Assembly (NCBI GenBank): GCA_020847435.1 | Contig: JADLBX010000017.1 | Span: forward strand, 1-34,598 | Length of the DNA: 34,598 nt | Source of the DNA: Anaerolineales bacterium | GTDB taxonomy: Bacteria > Chloroflexota > Anaerolineae > Anaerolineales > Villigracilaceae | Direction of reading: 5' to 3' | Shown: positions 12,374 to 18,941 of the stretch, piece by piece | Numbering within the stretch: the first letter of the stretch is position 1 | Layout of the letters: the number at the start of each line of letters is the position of its first letter | Notes under the pieces: generated by a model | What the model saw: the letters and a program-made list of their open reading frames with translations, nothing else | The model's database searches: none | Told to the model about the DNA's origin: nothing | Made by a program: the position numbers and the translations under genes

Positions 12374-13639
12374 ATGTTTACCGACCAAGTTGAAATCCAC
12401 GTGCGCTCGGGCAAGGGCGGCGATGGGATGGTGCATTTCCATCGCGAAAAATTCATCCCGCGCGGCGGACCCGACGGCGGCGACGGCGGCAAGGGCGGCG
12501 ATGTCGTCTTTGAAGTGAAACACACGCTCAACACGCTTTCGGCATTCCGCCAGAATCAAAAATTTAGAGCGGAGGACGGCGTAAAGGGCGGACCGTCGCA
12601 AATGTCCGGACGCGCGGGCAAAGACCTTGTGATCCACGTGCCGCCCGGCACGATTCTGTTCGACGCGGAGACGAACGCGATCATCGGCGATCTGACGCAA
12701 CCAAGCCAGCGACTCGTCGTCTGCAAAGGCGGGCGCGGCGGACGCGGGAATCAACACTTCGCCACATCGCGCAACCAGGCGCCGCGCACCGCCGAGAAGG
12801 GCGCGCCCCACGAAGAAAAACGCCTCCGCCTCGAATTGAAATTGATCGCCGACATCGGCTTGATCGGCGTGCCCAACGCGGGCAAGTCCACGTTGCTTTC
12901 GGTGTTGACGAACGCCAAGCCGAAGATCGCCGCGTATCCGTTCACCACCCTCGAGCCGAATCTCGGAGTCGCTGAAATTGACGTGAACGCGTCCGTTGTG
13001 CTGGCAGACATCCCCGGTCTGATCGAGGGGGCGAGTCACGGCGCGGGGCTGGGACATGATTTCCTGCGCCATGTCCAACGGACGCGCGTCCTCATCCATC
13101 TGCTGGATGGTTTATCCGAAGACCCTGTCGCAGATTACAGCCAGATCAATTCTGAGTTATCGCTGTTCGACCCAAACCTTGCGAAGAAGCCGCAGATCGT
13201 GGCGCTCAACAAGATTGACCAGCCCGATGTGCAGGAAAAATTGACTGAGATTCAAAAGCAATTCAAGAAGCGCAAAGTGGAGTTGATGACCATATCGGCT
13301 TTGGCGCGCACAAACACGCGCGACCTGCTCGTCAAGGCGCATCAAAAATTACAGGACGCGCCTCCGCCGGAATCGTTCGACGCGCCAACGCCGGTCTACA
13401 AACCGAAGGAAGACCCGCGCGAGTTTGCCGTCAAGCGCGAAGGCGCGCACGAGTGGAGGGTCACTGGCGCCGCCATCGAACGCGCCGCAAAAATGACCTA
13501 TTGGGAACACGACGGCTCGCTGCGGCGCTTCCAAAAGATCATGGAAACCCTCGGCGTGGAAGAGGCGTTACGTCAAGCCGGTGCGCAGGAGGGCGATACG
13601 GTCGCGATCGGAGATTTCGAGTTGGAGTGGCAGGATTAG
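12374..13639 (+). CDS. obgE: GTPase ObgE/CgtA
   Basis: Obg is an essential GTPase that acts on 50S ribosome assembly and stress control. The 421-residue protein has all three Obg parts. The Gly-rich OBG domain starts MFTDQVEIHVRSGKGGDG and includes RGGPDGGDGGKGGD. The G domain follows (G1 GVPNAGKST about 165-173, G3 DIPG, G4 NKID, G5 SAL). A C-terminal OCT domain begins near residue 340 (VKREGAHEWRVTGAAIERAA) and ends DTVAIGDFELEW. It stands alone here, without rpmA or nadD. A leaderless transcript is likely (TATAAT 6 nt upstream). Confidence 0.96.
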   Translation: MFTDQVEIHVRSGKGGDGMVHFHREKFIPRGGPDGGDGGKGGDVVFEVKHTLNTLSAFRQNQKFRAEDGVKGGPSQMSGRAGKDLVIHVPPGTILFDAETNAIIGDLTQPSQRLVVCKGGRGGRGNQHFATSRNQAPRTAEKGAPHEEKRLRLELKLIADIGLIGVPNAGKSTLLSVLTNAKPKIAAYPFTTLEPNLGVAEIDVNASVVLADIPGLIEGASHGAGLGHDFLRHVQRTRVLIHLLDGLSEDPVADYSQINSELSLFDPNLAKKPQIVALNKIDQPDVQEKLTEIQKQFKKRKVELMTISALARTNTRDLLVKAHQKLQDAPPPESFDAPTPVYKPKEDPREFAVKREGAHEWRVTGAAIERAAKMTYWEHDGSLRRFQKIMETLGVEEALRQAGAQEGDTVAIGDFELEWQD

Positions 13640-13661
13640 GAGCAATTGGTAATTCGCGCTG

Positions 13662-13754
13662 AGCGGAGGGACGTGTAGTTCGTCCCGAAGACGAAGCGGA
13701 TGGGAATTGGAGAATTTCCATTTCCAAACAGTGGTCGAGTAGCCCCGCGACCAC
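13662..13754. other. Convergent intergenic region with two weak hairpins
   Basis: GGGACG with CGTCCC (about 13668-13686) and GTGGTCG (13732-13738) with CGACCAC (13748-13754) can form short stems between the convergent obgE and isochorismatase genes. Neither is followed by a clear T-run, so terminator function is only possible. Confidence 0.3.
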
Positions 13755-13762
13755 ACCAAGTG

Positions 13763-14329
13763 TTACATCTTTTCTTGTTCTGAAGCCAGCAACGCGATGA
13801 CCTCATCCGTCTTCATCACTTTGCCATACCATGTGAGCGCGGCGAGAAAGGATTTGTGGACCAAGTCGGCGGGGATGGTTGTGCCGCCGTATTCCAAATC
13901 ACGGCTCGCGCAGGCGTCCTCCGCGACAATGACGTCGAAGCCGAAATCCACAGCCGCGCGGGCGGTCGCGTCCACGCACATGTGAGTCATCATACCGGTG
14001 ACCACCACGCGTTGAACATCCCACTCTTTCAACATCTCAAGTAAATTCGTCTCGAGGAACGAGTTGGGGAAATGTTTGTACACGATCGGCTCGCCCTCAA
14101 AATGCGCGACCGAATCGTGGATGTCCGAACCGCTGTCGCCTTTGATGAAAAAGTCAGCGTCGGGTTCGGTTGAGATGTGCTGGATGTGCACATGCCGCCC
14201 GCCATGCTCGCGGAAACACTGAAGCAATTCGTAGGCTTTCTTCGCCGCCTCGAGCGGCTTCACCAGCGGATATTTGCCGCCGGGGAAATAATCGTTTTGT
14301 ATGTCAATGATGAGTAAGGCTGTTTTCAT
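13763..14329 (-). CDS. Isochorismatase-like cysteine hydrolase
   Basis: A 188-residue member of the isochorismatase/nicotinamidase-like hydrolase family, which cleaves amides or enol ethers through an Asp-Lys-Cys triad. ALLIIDIQNDYF (Asp9) opens the domain, a Lys lies in the middle (near YKHFPNSF), and the nucleophile is in MMTHMCVDATARAA, the usual GMMTHMC(V/I)xAT signature. The substrate cannot be told from sequence. ATG 14329 is preferred over an in-frame start at 14353, because a TATACT box ends 7 nt before 14329 and no ribosome site exists. It is divergent from the MNT/HEPN pair across an 8-bp-repeat promoter region. Confidence 0.88.
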   Translation of the reverse strand: MKTALLIIDIQNDYFPGGKYPLVKPLEAAKKAYELLQCFREHGGRHVHIQHISTEPDADFFIKGDSGSDIHDSVAHFEGEPIVYKHFPNSFLETNLLEMLKEWDVQRVVVTGMMTHMCVDATARAAVDFGFDVIVAEDACASRDLEYGGTTIPADLVHKSFLAALTWYGKVMKTDEVIALLASEQEKM

Positions 14330-14337
14330 GGTTGAAA

Positions 14338-14377
14338 GTATACACGGAAACACGCGAACAGGCAGTCAAGTTATAAT
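14338..14377. promoter_or_regulatory. Divergent promoter region made partly of 8-bp repeats
   Basis: Four 8-bp units (GTATACAC, GGAAACAC, GCGAACAG, GCAGTCAA) fill 14338-14369. On the minus strand the first unit supplies most of TATACT (14342-14337), 7 nt before the isochorismatase ATG. On the plus strand TATAAT (14372-14377) lies 6 nt before the MNT ATG 14384. Both transcripts would be leaderless, and the repeat occupies the shared upstream DNA. Confidence 0.55.
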
Positions 14378-14383
14378 CAAAGT

Positions 14384-14710
14384 ATGAAACTTCGACCGCG
14401 AGTCCGCGCTATGAAATTAGCCGCCAAGGTCCGTCAGCGTCTAACCGATGCTCTGGGTCAGCCTGTAAGGGTGATCCTTTTTGGTTCGCAGGCGCGCGGC
14501 GATGCGACAAAAGACTCCGATATTGATCTTTTCGTTATCCTGCCTGCATTGGACGATAAGACACGTTTCCTTGTTTCAGATATAACCTGGCAGGTGGGCT
14601 TTGAGGCGGGAAAGGTTATTTCCGCAATCCCAACAACCAGCGAGAAGGTGAAGCGCGATGGTTTCCTGCCGTTATATCAAAACGTAAAAAAAGAGGGGAT
14701 TCCCGTATGA
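14384..14710 (+). CDS. MNT-type nucleotidyltransferase (antitoxin-like)
   Basis: A 108-residue minimal nucleotidyltransferase. The pol-beta superfamily core is clear: VILFGSQARGDATKDSDIDL, with GS, the helix turn, and the DSDID metal-binding aspartates near residues 46-50, and a third acidic position possible later. In MNT/HEPN (type VII) modules the MNT partner adds AMP to the HEPN toxin and silences it. The stop codon overlaps the HEPN start by 4 nt (ATGA), typical of translational coupling. A TATAAT box 6 nt upstream suggests leaderless expression. Confidence 0.85.
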   Translation: MKLRPRVRAMKLAAKVRQRLTDALGQPVRVILFGSQARGDATKDSDIDLFVILPALDDKTRFLVSDITWQVGFEAGKVISAIPTTSEKVKRDGFLPLYQNVKKEGIPV

Positions 14711-15108
14711 CAAAAAGGGATTCGCACACACGGGCATTAATTCAATATCGCATGGAGCGCGCACGCCAAACTTTGAATGCGGCAAAACTTTTACGCGAAG
14801 AAAAAGCCGATACAGCCAGCATTGTCAACCGCGCTTATTACGCCATGTTCTATGCCGCCTTAGCTTTGTTAGCGACCATCGGCGAGAAAACCTCCAAGCA
14901 CGGCGGCGTGATGGCATTATTTGACAAACACTTTATCAAGACCGGCGTCCTGCCCACCGAGATGGGGAAATTCTTGCACACTGCTTTCGACGCGCGCCAG
15001 ATCGGGGACTACGAAGATAGGTCTGAGATTTCAGAAGCCATGGCAGAACAAATTTCGGAATTCGCCGCGAAGTTTGTCAACTCGATTGAAGAAAAGCTTC
15101 AACATTAA
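14707..15108 (+). CDS. HEPN domain protein (UPF0332-type), partner of the MNT protein
   Basis: A 133-residue HEPN protein with the family stretch SIVNRAYYAMFYAALALLA (about residues 38-56) followed by KHGGVMALFDKHFI and a final amphipathic helix. HEPN proteins in such pairs are RNases or inactive relatives. The usual toxin motif (R, 4-6 residues, H) is not obvious here, so nuclease activity is uncertain. It is co-translated with the MNT gene and closed by a repeat array and a terminator at 15174-15215. A defence or addiction role is inference from the pairing. Confidence 0.82.
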   Translation: MTKRDSHTRALIQYRMERARQTLNAAKLLREEKADTASIVNRAYYAMFYAALALLATIGEKTSKHGGVMALFDKHFIKTGVLPTEMGKFLHTAFDARQIGDYEDRSEISEAMAEQISEFAAKFVNSIEEKLQH

Positions 15109-15163: not shown

Positions 15164-15173
15164 GACAGCAAAC

Positions 15174-15215
15174 GCCCCGCGGCGGGGAGACTGGCTCCCA
15201 AGCCGCGGGGCTTTT
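15174..15215 (+). terminator. Rho-independent terminator of the MNT/HEPN operon
   Basis: A 10-bp stem GCCCCGCGGC (15174-15183) and GCCGCGGGGC (15202-15211) encloses a second small stem, GGGAG with CTCCC, and is followed by TTTTCT. Confidence 0.8.
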
Positions 15216-15454
15216 CTATATTTGACTAATGCCGCAAAATCTCCGAGTTCTGGCAGAACTCGGAGATTTTGACACCAGCCAGGACTTGACCGCGCTGTCT
15301 CTCCTGTTTTGCCTCGGCTTCCGTCCGTAAACGGAGAGCATTTCTGGCTCGCAGACCTCCGAGTTCTTAAAGAACTCGGAGGTCTCGCTTACGAAATTTT
15401 CAAAATCGACTCGCCTTCGGCGAGAAACGAATCAGAGATTCAGAGTGCAGAGAT
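15216..15454. repeat. Intergenic region with two related palindromes between HEPN and NACHT genes
   Basis: There is no gene in this stretch. A 16-bp stem at 15236-15251 and 15255-15270 (AAAATCTCCGAGTTCT, 3-nt loop) and a 16-bp stem at 15353-15368 and 15370-15385 (AGACCTCCGAGTTCTT, 1-nt loop) share the core CTCCGAGTTCT, 117 bp apart. A short TCGCCTTCGGCGA hairpin follows at about 15411. Either large palindrome could end transcription from both sides. Just before the NACHT stop, CAGAGATTCAG and GCAGAGATTCAG are repeated. Confidence 0.7.
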
Positions 15455-18160
15455 TCAGATTTCAGATGTAATGATGGGAGAAGCACAAACCCGAAAACCG
15501 ATGAAGTAGTTGAAGTGGTCCGGGCTGTACCAGTCGCGGAACGCACAGCGGGTGCTCCTCTGATTACTGAGGAACGAGCCGCCGCGCAACACGCGAAACC
15601 CAGAAGCCTTTTCATCCTCGCGTCCGTCGCTGGCGTTGTAAGGATATTCTTTGTAAACACTGCGCGTCCATTCCCAGACATTGCCCGACATGTCGGCACA
15701 GCCATACGGCGAATCGCCGCGCGGAGAGAAGGTTCCAACTGGCGTAGTGGCTCGTTTGCCATTTTTACGCCGAATACGATCCCAAAAAGATTGAGGTTTC
15801 TGCCAATATTCGTCGGTGTTTGCGTATCCGTCTTTCCAGTCGTTTCCCCATGGATAAATGCGCCCATCCGTGCCGCGCGCGGCTTTTTCCCATTCGGCTT
15901 CGCTCGGCAAGGACACGCCTTTCCATTTGGCGAAGGCGAGCGCGTCGTTCCACGTCACATACACAACGGGATGGTTCTCCACACCGCCGAGCGAACGCTC
16001 GTCACTGGTTTTATATCCGCTCTCCTGCACGAAGGCGCGGTACTCATCCACCGTGACGGGATATTTGGCGATGTAGTAATTGGGCAGGTATAAAGTGTGC
16101 TGCGGCTGTTCTTCATCGTATTTTCGTTTATCTGCATCGGAACTGCCCATCAAAAATTCGCCAGCGGGGATCGAGAGCAAACCCAGTTCCTCGCCGCGTC
16201 CCAATTCGCAATATGCCCAGACTGCGGCGGCTTTAAGTCTTTCGTCAGCCTGTTTGCGCGCCGAAGTCAACGCGTTCCATAAGTCCGCGTCGGGCGAGGG
16301 TTTGAGTTTTGCAAGGACGAGCGCGCACTGCGCGCGTAAGTTCGCGTCGGCGTGCGGGTCGGCGAGGGCGCTCGTCAGGTTGGGCAGAAACGGTTTGCTT
16401 TGCTCCAGCCCGAGGTCGGGGATGAGCGAGGCAAGCACGCGTTTTTGGAGGTCGGGGTTATTCCCCGACAACACCGAGCCAACCCAACTTTGCATGGCTT
16501 GCGGGTCGGCGTCCGACAAAGCCGAACTCAATACGGCAAAGTCGCTGGTTGTTTGAGCGCGGTCCAGGTGCGCGGTCAATGTGTTTGTCACTTGCAGGCG
16601 CAGGGCAGGCTCCACCTGAATGCCTTCGGCAAGGCTCCAACCTGCCATCGCCAAACTCGCCGCGCTGGTATCGGCGTGGGCGAGCAGAGCCTTCAACAAA
16701 TTTTCACGCAGGTCTTTCGTCACCAACCTCACGGCGATCAGAATGACTTCGCGCCACTCAGCGCTATCGGCGTGTTCGAGCAAGAGGTCGGTGAATTTCT
16801 CGTCCACAATCTGGTCGGCGGCGAGGCGGTCTTGCAGGGCACGGTGAGCAAAGCCGTATTGGTACACGCCGAAATCCACAAGGATTCCCGAACGGCTCGA
16901 AATCTGTCGGACGAATTCTTCGGCGCTCATCGGCAGGTTACGCTTCGACAACAGCGGCGCGATCAACCCGCACAAGTCGGCTATGTTCATTTGCAACAAG
17001 TTCCGTTTGAGAAACTCAAACGCGATCGCCATCAGAATGGATTTCTTATCTTCATACGCCAGGGCGTTGAGCGGCGAATCGATATCCCTGCGCTTGTCCC
17101 AAATGCTCAGCAGGATCTTCAAGCACTCCTCGTACAACTCCGCCCGCCCGCGCGGCAGGCTGTGCTGATATTTATAAACCAGCGCGATCAATACGAGGAT
17201 TAACGGTCGGCGCGCGACCTTGAGCAAGCCCTGATTTTTAGACAGCGCCGTCCACAGTTTCTCCGCTTCATTCGAAGCCGATCGCAGCGCGGCTTCGCGG
17301 GTCAGGCGCAGTTGGTCGAGGCTTGGCTTTTCGGGCAGGTTCTTGTTCGCTTCCGCCGCTTTTACCACGCGATACCAATCGCCGATGAATTTCCGCACGG
17401 CGTCGTCGCTCAAATCCTGAATATCATACTCGTCAAAATCGGGGAAGAACTGTTTGCTCCAACCCATCGGGCGCGAGGTGACGATCATCCAATTGTCGGC
17501 GTATTTCCTGGCGAACATTTGAATTTGCCTGACGGCGTGTTCCTTGTCCTTTTCATCCAACACTTCGTCCAAGCCGTCGAACAAAACAATGCACTTTCCC
17601 CGCTCCAGGCGTTTTTCGAAATAGCCGTAGTGGATTTCCTCCTCGCAATGCTCGCGCGTGCCGATGAATTCCTTGAGTTGTTTTTGCTTCAACGTCCGCA
17701 AGCGCACGTAGATCGGCAGGGGATTCCCCAGTTCTTTTGGCAGGGCGTGTTTGATGGAACCCGTGAAGATCAGGATGAGATAATCGAGCAGGGTGGTCTT
17801 CCCCGCGCCGGGCATGCCTTTGATGGCAATCTGCCTTTTTGGCGTTCTGAAAACCTTCGTCCAATCGTCCGCATGTGAGTCGGTCTCCGAATCCAATTTC
17901 AGCGAAATGTACACATTCTCCAACTTGGGCGGCTTCTCGCGGTCTTCATACGCGCCGATCAATTTGAGGTTCTCGCGGTTCACGGTCAGCGCGGCGAAAT
18001 AACGCTTCGTCACGCCAAAGCCCACAGCCTGAAAAAAACCATCCAACCACTCGCCGATCTTCCTAAACCCCGCCTTGATCGGCTCCGAGAGAATCAGAAT
18101 CACGATCGCGGTGACGACCCCGACTACGATTTTTTCGATGCTTTCCTGCGACAGGTCCAT
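15455..18160 (-). CDS. Membrane-anchored NACHT ATPase fused to an FGE/C-type-lectin-like domain
   Basis: A 901-residue fusion. An N-terminal membrane helix (about 11-28, IVVGVVTAIVILILSEP) precedes a NACHT STAND ATPase: Walker A GMPGAGKTT (115-123), Walker B IVLFDGLDEV (191-200), TSRP soon after, and a winged-helix end FAHRALQDRLAADQ. An alpha-helical repeat region (about 480-660) leads to an FGE-sulfatase/SUMF1 domain (664-901: IPAGEFLMGSS, NPVY-like VVYVTWNDALAFAKW, LPSEAEWEKAARG, MSGNVWEWT, VLRGGSF, IGFRVC). Bacterial NACHT proteins often act in anti-phage defence, and FGE-fold domains often bind ligands. The last 40 residues look like a DGR variable region. ATG 18160 has AAGGA seven bases upstream. 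The gene faces the MNT/HEPN pair. Confidence 0.88.
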   Translation of the reverse strand: MDLSQESIEKIVVGVVTAIVILILSEPIKAGFRKIGEWLDGFFQAVGFGVTKRYFAALTVNRENLKLIGAYEDREKPPKLENVYISLKLDSETDSHADDWTKVFRTPKRQIAIKGMPGAGKTTLLDYLILIFTGSIKHALPKELGNPLPIYVRLRTLKQKQLKEFIGTREHCEEEIHYGYFEKRLERGKCIVLFDGLDEVLDEKDKEHAVRQIQMFARKYADNWMIVTSRPMGWSKQFFPDFDEYDIQDLSDDAVRKFIGDWYRVVKAAEANKNLPEKPSLDQLRLTREAALRSASNEAEKLWTALSKNQGLLKVARRPLILVLIALVYKYQHSLPRGRAELYEECLKILLSIWDKRRDIDSPLNALAYEDKKSILMAIAFEFLKRNLLQMNIADLCGLIAPLLSKRNLPMSAEEFVRQISSRSGILVDFGVYQYGFAHRALQDRLAADQIVDEKFTDLLLEHADSAEWREVILIAVRLVTKDLRENLLKALLAHADTSAASLAMAGWSLAEGIQVEPALRLQVTNTLTAHLDRAQTTSDFAVLSSALSDADPQAMQSWVGSVLSGNNPDLQKRVLASLIPDLGLEQSKPFLPNLTSALADPHADANLRAQCALVLAKLKPSPDADLWNALTSARKQADERLKAAAVWAYCELGRGEELGLLSIPAGEFLMGSSDADKRKYDEEQPQHTLYLPNYYIAKYPVTVDEYRAFVQESGYKTSDERSLGGVENHPVVYVTWNDALAFAKWKGVSLPSEAEWEKAARGTDGRIYPWGNDWKDGYANTDEYWQKPQSFWDRIRRKNGKRATTPVGTFSPRGDSPYGCADMSGNVWEWTRSVYKEYPYNASDGREDEKASGFRVLRGGSFLSNQRSTRCAFRDWYSPDHFNYFIGFRVCASPIITSEI
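15500..15574 (-). other. Candidate DGR variable region at the NACHT-FGE C-terminus
   Basis: Residues about 863-887 lie between the conserved blocks VLRGGS and IGFR. Of 25 codons, 20 end in C or T, and the surface-exposed positions read TTC, CTC, AGT, AAT, AGC, ACC, GAC, TAC, AGC, CAC, TTC, AAC, TAC, TTC. This is what adenine mutagenesis of AAY (Asn) template codons gives. Homologous FGE proteins commonly have Asn runs at these positions (recalled from the family, not searched). No template repeat or reverse transcriptase is in the window. Confidence 0.4.
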
Positions 18161-18179: not shown

Positions 18180-18262
18180 GTATACACGTAGACAGGTACG
18201 CCCGGAATCAATTCTTCAAATCGTGTTTACCTGTTTTCTTGTTTACCTGTTTACCTATCTAC
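18180..18262. repeat. 8-bp-period repeats in opposed orientation between the NACHT and RNase H genes
   Basis: Units GTATACAC and GTAGACAG (18180-18195) run forward. Five units run in reverse at 18223-18262; read on the minus strand they are GTAGATAG, GTAAACAG, GTAAACAA, GAAAACAG, GTAAACAC. The two parts can pair into a hairpin. The last reverse unit supplies the TAG stop of the RNase H gene (18259-18261). A TATACT in the forward part could serve as -10 box for the NACHT gene. Confidence 0.7.
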
Positions 18263-18882
18263 TTCCTCCCAAAATCCGCCGGGTTCTCGCCCCACTCGCC
18301 CGTGTTCCATTTCAGCGCCGCCTCGTCGTCCAACTCATTTTCCGCCAGCCAATTCTCCGCGCTGCGGATCATCGCAAAGACGATCGCGTTCTTGCCGGTG
18401 TGCTTCAACCGCGTTTTGCACACGCCCATCTCGACCCATGCAATTGCATTTTCCGAATCCGAATAGATCGGCAACTTCCTTTTGTGTTTCACCAACCACG
18501 TCAGCGCGCGCACGATCGCTAAAAATTCGCCGACGTTGTTCGTCCCATCCGGGTATGGACCCGCGCGAAAAATTTCCCTGCCCGATTCCGTTTCGACGCC
18601 GCGATATTCCATTTTGCCGGGCGAGCCTTTACACGCCGCGTCCACGCAGATGGATGGAATGATCGGCGGCTCTTCGGACTTCCTCCACTTCCCCGACGTG
18701 GACGCCCTCCCCTTAAACGCTTCATACTTCGACTGGAAGGCTGACTCGGCTTCCCGGCGCGTTTCAAACGCCTTGAACTCCGCGCCGACGAATCCCTTCA
18801 CCAGCGTCTCACACTCCGCCCACGAAGTGAAGATACCGGTCTCGCGTCCCTTCCAAACGACGTAGAACTTTTGCTTTGGCAT
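18259..18882 (-). CDS. Ribonuclease H with N-terminal viroplasmin (hybrid-binding) domain
   Basis: A 207-residue protein. Residues 1-50 (KFYVVWKGRETGIFTSWAEC and a following FKAFETRREAESAF) form a Cauli_VI/viroplasmin domain like the hybrid-binding domain of eukaryotic RNase H1. The rest is an RNase HI fold that degrades RNA in RNA-DNA hybrids: ICVDAACKG (first Asp), GVETESGREIF, NNVGEFLAIVRALTWL (Glu), IYSDSENAIAWV (second Asp). ATG 18882 replaces a longer start at 18918, since MPKQKFYVVW is the natural beginning. The stop TAG lies inside an 8-bp repeat unit. No reverse transcriptase lies next to it. Confidence 0.88.
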   Translation of the reverse strand: MPKQKFYVVWKGRETGIFTSWAECETLVKGFVGAEFKAFETRREAESAFQSKYEAFKGRASTSGKWRKSEEPPIIPSICVDAACKGSPGKMEYRGVETESGREIFRAGPYPDGTNNVGEFLAIVRALTWLVKHKRKLPIYSDSENAIAWVEMGVCKTRLKHTGKNAIVFAMIRSAENWLAENELDDEAALKWNTGEWGENPADFGRK

Positions 18883-18890
18883 AATTCTCG

Positions 18891-18941
18891 TAGGGGCGGG
18901 GTTTCCCCGCCTGCGCATCGAACGAGATGACCGCGCCCCTA
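18891..18941. repeat. Nested inverted repeat between the CBS and RNase H genes
   Basis: Outer arms TAGGGGCG (18891-18898) and CGCCCCTA (18934-18941) enclose an inner stem GGCGGGG (18895-18901) and CCCCGCC (18905-18911) with a TTT loop. The right outer arm contains the CBS gene stop codon. It is probably a dispersed repeat; there is no T-run. Confidence 0.55.

Follow-up and report, generated by a model that had tools for sequence, protein, structure and literature searches.

A NACHT receptor with a probably retroelement-diversified lectin-like sensor, and an RNA scaffold apparently left without its template, in an Anaerolineales genome

NACHT-lectin targets of diversity-generating retroelements (DGRs) and degenerate DGR loci have already been published (PMC10907252). 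The closest described systems are the NACHT/nSTAND1-CLec targets of clade 5D DGRs in Thiohalocapsa PB-PSB1 (Dore et al. 2024, PMC10907252), which join a STAND NTPase to a C-terminal FGE/CLec domain bearing the variable repeat (VR), include degenerate loci that lack the reverse transcriptase (RT) or template repeat (TR) and are supplied in trans, and are proposed to sense antigens. The locus studied here lies in a window of 34,598 nucleotides, contig C17 of an Anaerolineales genome (G000; other G numbers denote relatives' genomes and L numbers loci), and encodes a protein of the same design. Unlike those systems, it has Anaerolineae-type relatives and an N-terminal helix, belongs to a family organized as gene, optional avd, TR and scaffold with the RT elsewhere, and appears to have retained the scaffold while losing the TR.

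The BPP-1 DGR of Bordetella phage shares adenine-specific VR/TR differences, RT and Avd, and a hairpin behind the VR (PMC3240598, PMC12875486); its spacer RNA behind the TR folds, and reportedly recruits RT-Avd and primes the cDNA (PMC12875486), and the scaffold described below corresponds to that spacer by position. The hairpins here have stems of 6-7 bp, loops of 3-4 nt and lie 52-105 nt behind the VR core, compared with 7-10 bp, a GRNA loop and 4-34 bp in BPP-1 (PMC3240598, PMC12875486). In DGR-linked ternary systems with a proposed role in conflict (Kaur et al. 2020, PMC7159879), FGS/FGE proteins also carry an FGE domain that a DGR varies, but the present receptor has its NACHT domain in the same chain. 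Cyanobacterial remote variable proteins such as all3226 likewise combine an RT-distant target with a remnant, and removal of the machinery after selection has been suggested for them (PMC7517822); their remnant is TR-VR homology, whereas that at our locus is an RNA scaffold and a hairpin, not a TR. In a search of the open-licence literature we recognized no paper describing this NACHT-FGE family.

The receptor gene occupies 15455-18160 on the reverse strand (ATG at 18160, 901 residues; a TTG at 18211 is a possible alternative start). An earlier note, made from the sequence, had read its product as a helix, a NACHT ATPase, helical repeats and an FGE domain, and both Pfam and the predicted structure bear this out. 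Residues 5-24 (18089-18148) form a hydrophobic helix, predicted at low-to-medium confidence, that is probably a membrane anchor, a call made by eye. The NACHT domain spans residues 109-263 (17372-17836; Pfam PF05729, E 7.9e-9, over the cut-off), and the protein contains the stretches GMPGAGKTT and VLFDGLDE, which we take to be NACHT motifs. A helical-repeat region follows in the predicted structure at about residues 281-660 (16181-17320), and an FGE-sulfatase, C-type-lectin-like domain at residues 661-891 (15488-16180; Pfam E 5.3e-60), all on the reverse strand. The whole-chain AlphaFold model is of modest confidence (mean pLDDT 65.5), and its FGE part is poor (blocks <50), so that we base no claim on the structure of the FGE tip. 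Foldseek with this model returned NOD2, NLRC4, NLRP3, NLRP7 and formylglycine-generating enzymes at the top, all with low TM-scores. When the receptor is aligned to the formylglycine-generating enzyme 6s07, the first cysteine of FLCHESYC is replaced by serine and the second falls in an alignment gap; these are presumably the two active-site cysteines. Since both are absent, FGE activity is unlikely on the basis of the alignment, and the domain may bind rather than catalyse. PADLOC assigned no family to the protein, and it scores far below the NCBIfam cut-offs for EruA and DS8, giving no match to a described antiphage family. An immune role is an inference; a sensor role would accord with what Dore et al. 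propose for NACHT-CLec DGR targets, a proposal that in their view still awaits testing (PMC10907252).

The VR core lies at 15482-15586 on the reverse strand, at the 3' end of the FGE gene, with its variable codons at 15500-15574. Our recount agrees with the earlier note that 20 of the 25 codons between RGGS and IGFR are NNY, compared with 51% of codons elsewhere in the gene (P 0.003, binomial), and the NNY-richest 25-codon windows of the gene (21 of 25) overlap 15500-15574; on its own this count is weak evidence for a DGR. The best fit among nine TRs, that on contig C136 of G007 (G007b), differs from the window VR at 15 of 30 adenines and 11 of 75 other positions without a gap, and all 13 of its AAY codons are NNY in the VR (P 1.7e-4 at the gene background). 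The VR core holds 16 adenines and the nearest TR core 30. Among the residues that the note listed as replacing asparagine, the threonine is out of place, as it aligns with alanine or valine in the TRs seen. At the 13 template-Asn sites, 11 orthologues share only 12 of 134 residues with the receptor, compared with 68 of 126 across the remaining VR sites; in the FGE domain outside the VR, 54-76% are shared. Ordinary drift, which the note had proposed testing in homologues, is therefore rejected. Template-A sites thus vary while other sites are conserved, as expected of a gene that a DGR diversified in the past.

Relatives show how such genes are arranged. Among 61 genomes (G000 and 60 relatives), full-length orthologues were found in G013 (73% identity) and G007 (56-57%), and a partial one turned up in G032. 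When named genomes were scanned with the N-terminal 640 residues, 58 loci emerged. Of the 11 closest (L095-L105, 39-75% identity in the best segment), eight are Anaerolineae-type or Chloroflexi records and the other three belong to Thermoanaerobaculum and Holophagales MAGs; L096, L099 and L105 correspond to the loci already found in G013, G007 and G032. The NACHT-FGE gene of G013 and G007 is followed by avd and then the TR, and in SJ708 (L097, 72%) by a transposase, the TR and the scaffold. The SJ708 transposase gene is of the DDE type (L097:3876-5234) and lies between the VR hairpin of the orthologue and its TR. At L103:335-5200 a complete set of Avd, TR and RT stands between two FGE targets, one of which is a NACHT-FGE homologue (45% identity); both VRs are nearly adenine-specific against the TR.

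Three orthologues (56-73% identical) are thus followed by a TR from which the VR differs wholly or mainly at adenines. We counted ten VR/TR pairs, placing one codon gap to minimize non-A differences in the two pairs of unequal length. Four belong to NACHT-FGE genes: G007a and SJ708 each differ at 16 of 27 adenines and 0 of 75 other positions, G013a at 8 of 27 and 3 of 75, and L103 at 18 of 28 and 2 of 77. The rest belong to other FGE genes, namely C27 of this genome (18 of 31 adenines, 0 of 74 others), G007b (19 of 30, 0 of 75), G024 (19 of 25, 0 of 80), G006 (9 of 28, 2 of 77), the KAP-FGE gene G011a (14 of 27, 8 of 75) and the second L103 target (19 of 28, with 1 non-A difference). Non-A differences are therefore 0 in five pairs and 1, 2, 2, 3 and 8 in the others, against 8-19 differences at 25-31 adenines; adenine specificity is imperfect in G011a and G013a. 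A TR-like match in G008 proved to be a piece of an FGE frame and not a TR.

An avd between VR and TR is absent in G011, SJ708, G024 and G006, and no RT lies beside the module in G013 (whole 14-kb contig) or G007 (11 kb of a 23-kb contig); DGR-type RTs occur at C314 of G013 and C136 of G007, with a short RT piece at C4 of G007. Although its genome is listed as 99% complete and holds a VR/TR pair, G006 yielded no DGR RT at 1e-30 and no Avd, and in G024 only a 79-residue RT piece was found despite its adenine-specific pair. Both pairs, at L193:14384-14832 (G006 contig C27) and L055:9843-10216 (G024 contig C75), carry the conserved scaffold, with no intact DGR RT found. Loss of single DGR parts seems to be common in this group. 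Among the 11 closest loci, two orthologue contigs (L095 and L098) end inside the VR at their 3' ends, as expected if reads disagree there, which is suggestive only.

The earlier note reported neither RT nor TR in the window, which holds, and Avd is also absent; the window does, however, carry the RNA scaffold of a TR and a hairpin like those behind VRs. Behind the VR, all on the reverse strand, lies a GC hairpin (CTCGCC-GAA-GGCGAG, 15410-15424) that is a possible DGR target-site hairpin and also has a terminator-like score. Hairpins of this GC type stand behind seven of nine VRs tested (all except G006 and C44) and are absent in that form behind the seven TRs tested. Within 101,893 bases of this genome the exact 15-mer has two occurrences, one behind the window VR and the other behind the C27 VR. 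Comparison with L097, L052 and L053 places a putative deletion junction at 15396-15409, where the expected TR, and avd if once present, are missing. Next come a hairpin on the 5' side of the scaffold (15353-15385), similar in place and sequence to that of L097, the structured RNA scaffold itself (15276-15348), which follows the TR in relatives, a second hairpin on its 3' side (15236-15270), and a GC hairpin after AAATATA (15173-15213) that is terminator-like on both strands and whose layout, by eye, is that of the relatives.

The scaffold was identified with a covariance model built from six relatives' scaffolds and leaving the window out. It scores 91.3 bits (E 5.8e-22), compared with 11.3 bits for the second-best match, and covers 73 of 73 model positions with one non-standard pair, which indicates little decay. 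Over seven sequences 97% of cells are paired, compared with 35-48% when the structure is slid, and both sides change in 5 of 19 pairs; these counts include the window and are biased towards the structure, which came from the six others. Sequence behind the VR is 84-90% identical over 73-80 nt to post-TR sequence of five relatives (best E 8.5e-25), and 87.6% identical over 121 nt to SJ708, starting 18 nt behind the SJ708 TR core. The scaffold is about 90% identical to those of G013, G007 and G011, but adjoining coding DNA of G013, G007 and SJ708 only about 70%, and the scaffold was therefore under selection until recently. All 11 scaffolds found at E <= 0.01 in 10 other genomes have a TR 22-66 nt upstream, although six of these built the model; G005 gave none. 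At the window, in contrast, the VR ends 133 nt upstream of the scaffold with no TR between, and the GC hairpin and scaffold are 61 nt apart. The scaffold is the sole match in this genome among 150 of 592 candidates scored (150 likewise per other genome). A G012 match (E 0.49) and window model matches with E values of at least 0.6 were discounted as noise. At gathering scores neither L052 nor L001 matched an Rfam family, and none fits the scaffold. A viral origin was considered and set aside: the exact scaffold pattern matched no viral contig, and the 228 pattern stretches returned with the N-terminal profile included no relative by tblastn.

The note had suggested searching the genome for a template beside an RT gene. 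A DGR-type RT was indeed found; a cognate TR is not in the assembled genome (3.05 Mb in 74 contigs, 88.6% complete, of metagenome type). That RT, the only one, is part of a complete DGR on contig C27 (L003:11174-13018, 13101-14180, 14180-14515 and 14541-14645) comprising a target, an RT with an LPIGNLTSQ motif, Avd and TR. The target is a TIR-FGE protein (TIR_2 E 1.9e-27) with a membrane helix between its domains, judged by eye. Avd exceeds the cut-off only at C27, with a weaker match below it at C10. A TR profile run over the genome, with all 27 candidates scored, recovered one TR (C27) and three VRs (C17, which is the window, C27 and C44). The C44 protein (L058:7864-10167) is a KAP NTPase-FGE whose tail is NNY-rich and VR-like; the 19 kb examined there yielded no TR, RT or Avd. 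A KAP-FGE gene in G011 does come with a TR and a scaffold. The C27 template is rejected as the source of the window VR, since the two differ at 30 of 74 non-A positions.

We link the window gene to a DGR, as the earlier note had proposed, because part of the cassette lies in cis, because orthologues and other FGE genes have adenine-biased VR/TR pairs, and because a complete DGR exists in the same genome. The account we consider probable is that of a NACHT sensor diversified by a DGR whose own template has been deleted, so that the sensor would now be frozen unless a template exists elsewhere or was lost in assembly. The receptor would be a STAND-type NACHT protein whose C-terminal FGE/lectin domain was diversified by the DGR, with a ligand at the FGE tip presumably switching the ATPase to a protective or suicidal response. 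The ancestral module would resemble that of sister species, with gene, hairpin, sometimes avd, TR, RNA scaffold and terminator, and an RT encoded at another locus. A deletion in this genome would have taken the TR, and avd if it was once there, and spared the hairpin and the whole scaffold. The present sensor tip may thus be a snapshot of earlier adenine mutagenesis that is now inherited as an ordinary gene. We infer that diversification at the window locus has stopped, and the lack of a cognate TR in the assembly counts against present-day diversification by a local template.

Other accounts are less likely. The VR could still be rewritten by the C27 RT-Avd with a cognate TR outside the assembly, which could be missing, since the 74 contigs are only 88.6% complete. 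The genome has an RT and Avd, and the target they serve seems to have been rewritten recently (18 of 31 adenines, 0 of 74 others); the window and C27 VRs are followed by an identical 15-mer hairpin, the G013 and G007 modules work without an RT on the stretch holding them, and remote and trans-acting targets are described in two papers (PMC7517822, PMC10907252). However, no second TR was detected by Pfam profile, DNA or TR profile, the C27 TR misfits, and a scaffold in cis without a TR points to local loss of the template; we regard a remote template as unlikely, with a real minority chance. The missing TR, perhaps with avd, might instead have been dropped by the assembler between hairpin and scaffold, or be present in only part of the population. 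This would suit a metagenome-type assembly in 74 contigs, a nearly undecayed scaffold and the two orthologue contigs that break within the VR, and work on Thiohalocapsa describes a DGR locus without TR in the reference beside rarer complete-TR variants (PMC10907252). The junction does not lie at the VR/TR repeat, however, the VR has kept the 3' flank and hairpin that belong to it, and the 34.6-kb contig continues across the junction, so we give an artefact only a slim chance. The nearly undecayed scaffold itself fits equally well if the deletion is recent, if the RNA remains in use or if the assembly is wrong. Recombination between VR and TR is ruled out as the cause of the deletion, since the VR retains its own 3' flank and hairpin.

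Two further accounts find little credence with us. The RGGS...GFR frame is general in the FGE family and the NNY count by itself reaches only P 0.003, such that ordinary divergence, with the codon pattern a product of chance or amino-acid choice, could be entertained; it is contradicted by the scaffold in cis, the TRs behind orthologues and the variability at template sites, and is most improbable. Equally hard to credit is a VR that templates itself, in which the receptor mRNA would carry the VR upstream of the intact scaffold and serve as template for an RT supplied in trans. Strand and order are the same and the layout of scaffold and terminator is intact, but the VR lies 133 nt from the scaffold instead of 22-66 nt with an extra hairpin between, adenines would be consumed (the VR core has 16, the nearest TR 30), and we found no precedent in the DGR literature consulted. 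If true, it would be a one-repeat DGR rewriting itself and using up adenines each round.

If loss of the local template is the right reading, the receptor has been caught after a switch from targeted hypermutation to a fixed sensor, with its RNA scaffold still attached. One genome would then display both the working state, in TIR-FGE with its complete DGR, and two states that lack local machinery, in NACHT-FGE and KAP-FGE. The scaffold model offers a route to template-less DGR loci that VR/TR comparison cannot see, and thus a means of counting how often diversified sensors become fixed.

The last template of the window VR may have been of another type than the one lost, because the VR and its 3' flank resemble the DGR at C136 of G007 at least as well as the orthologous TRs. 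The 3' flank is 90% identical over 53 nt to the VR flank of that contig, and non-A differences number 11 of 75 against the C136 TR, compared with 12 of 75 and 17 of 75 against orthologous TRs; the scaffold behind the window VR scores as the orthologous cassette type. A second type of template may have rewritten the VR before loss of the local one.

The neighbouring genes of the window include an RNase H protein with a Cauli_VI N-terminal domain (18259-18918, reverse strand) immediately upstream of the receptor gene, and an MNT nucleotidyltransferase and HEPN gene pair (14384-15108, forward strand), toxin-antitoxin-like and convergent with the scaffold.
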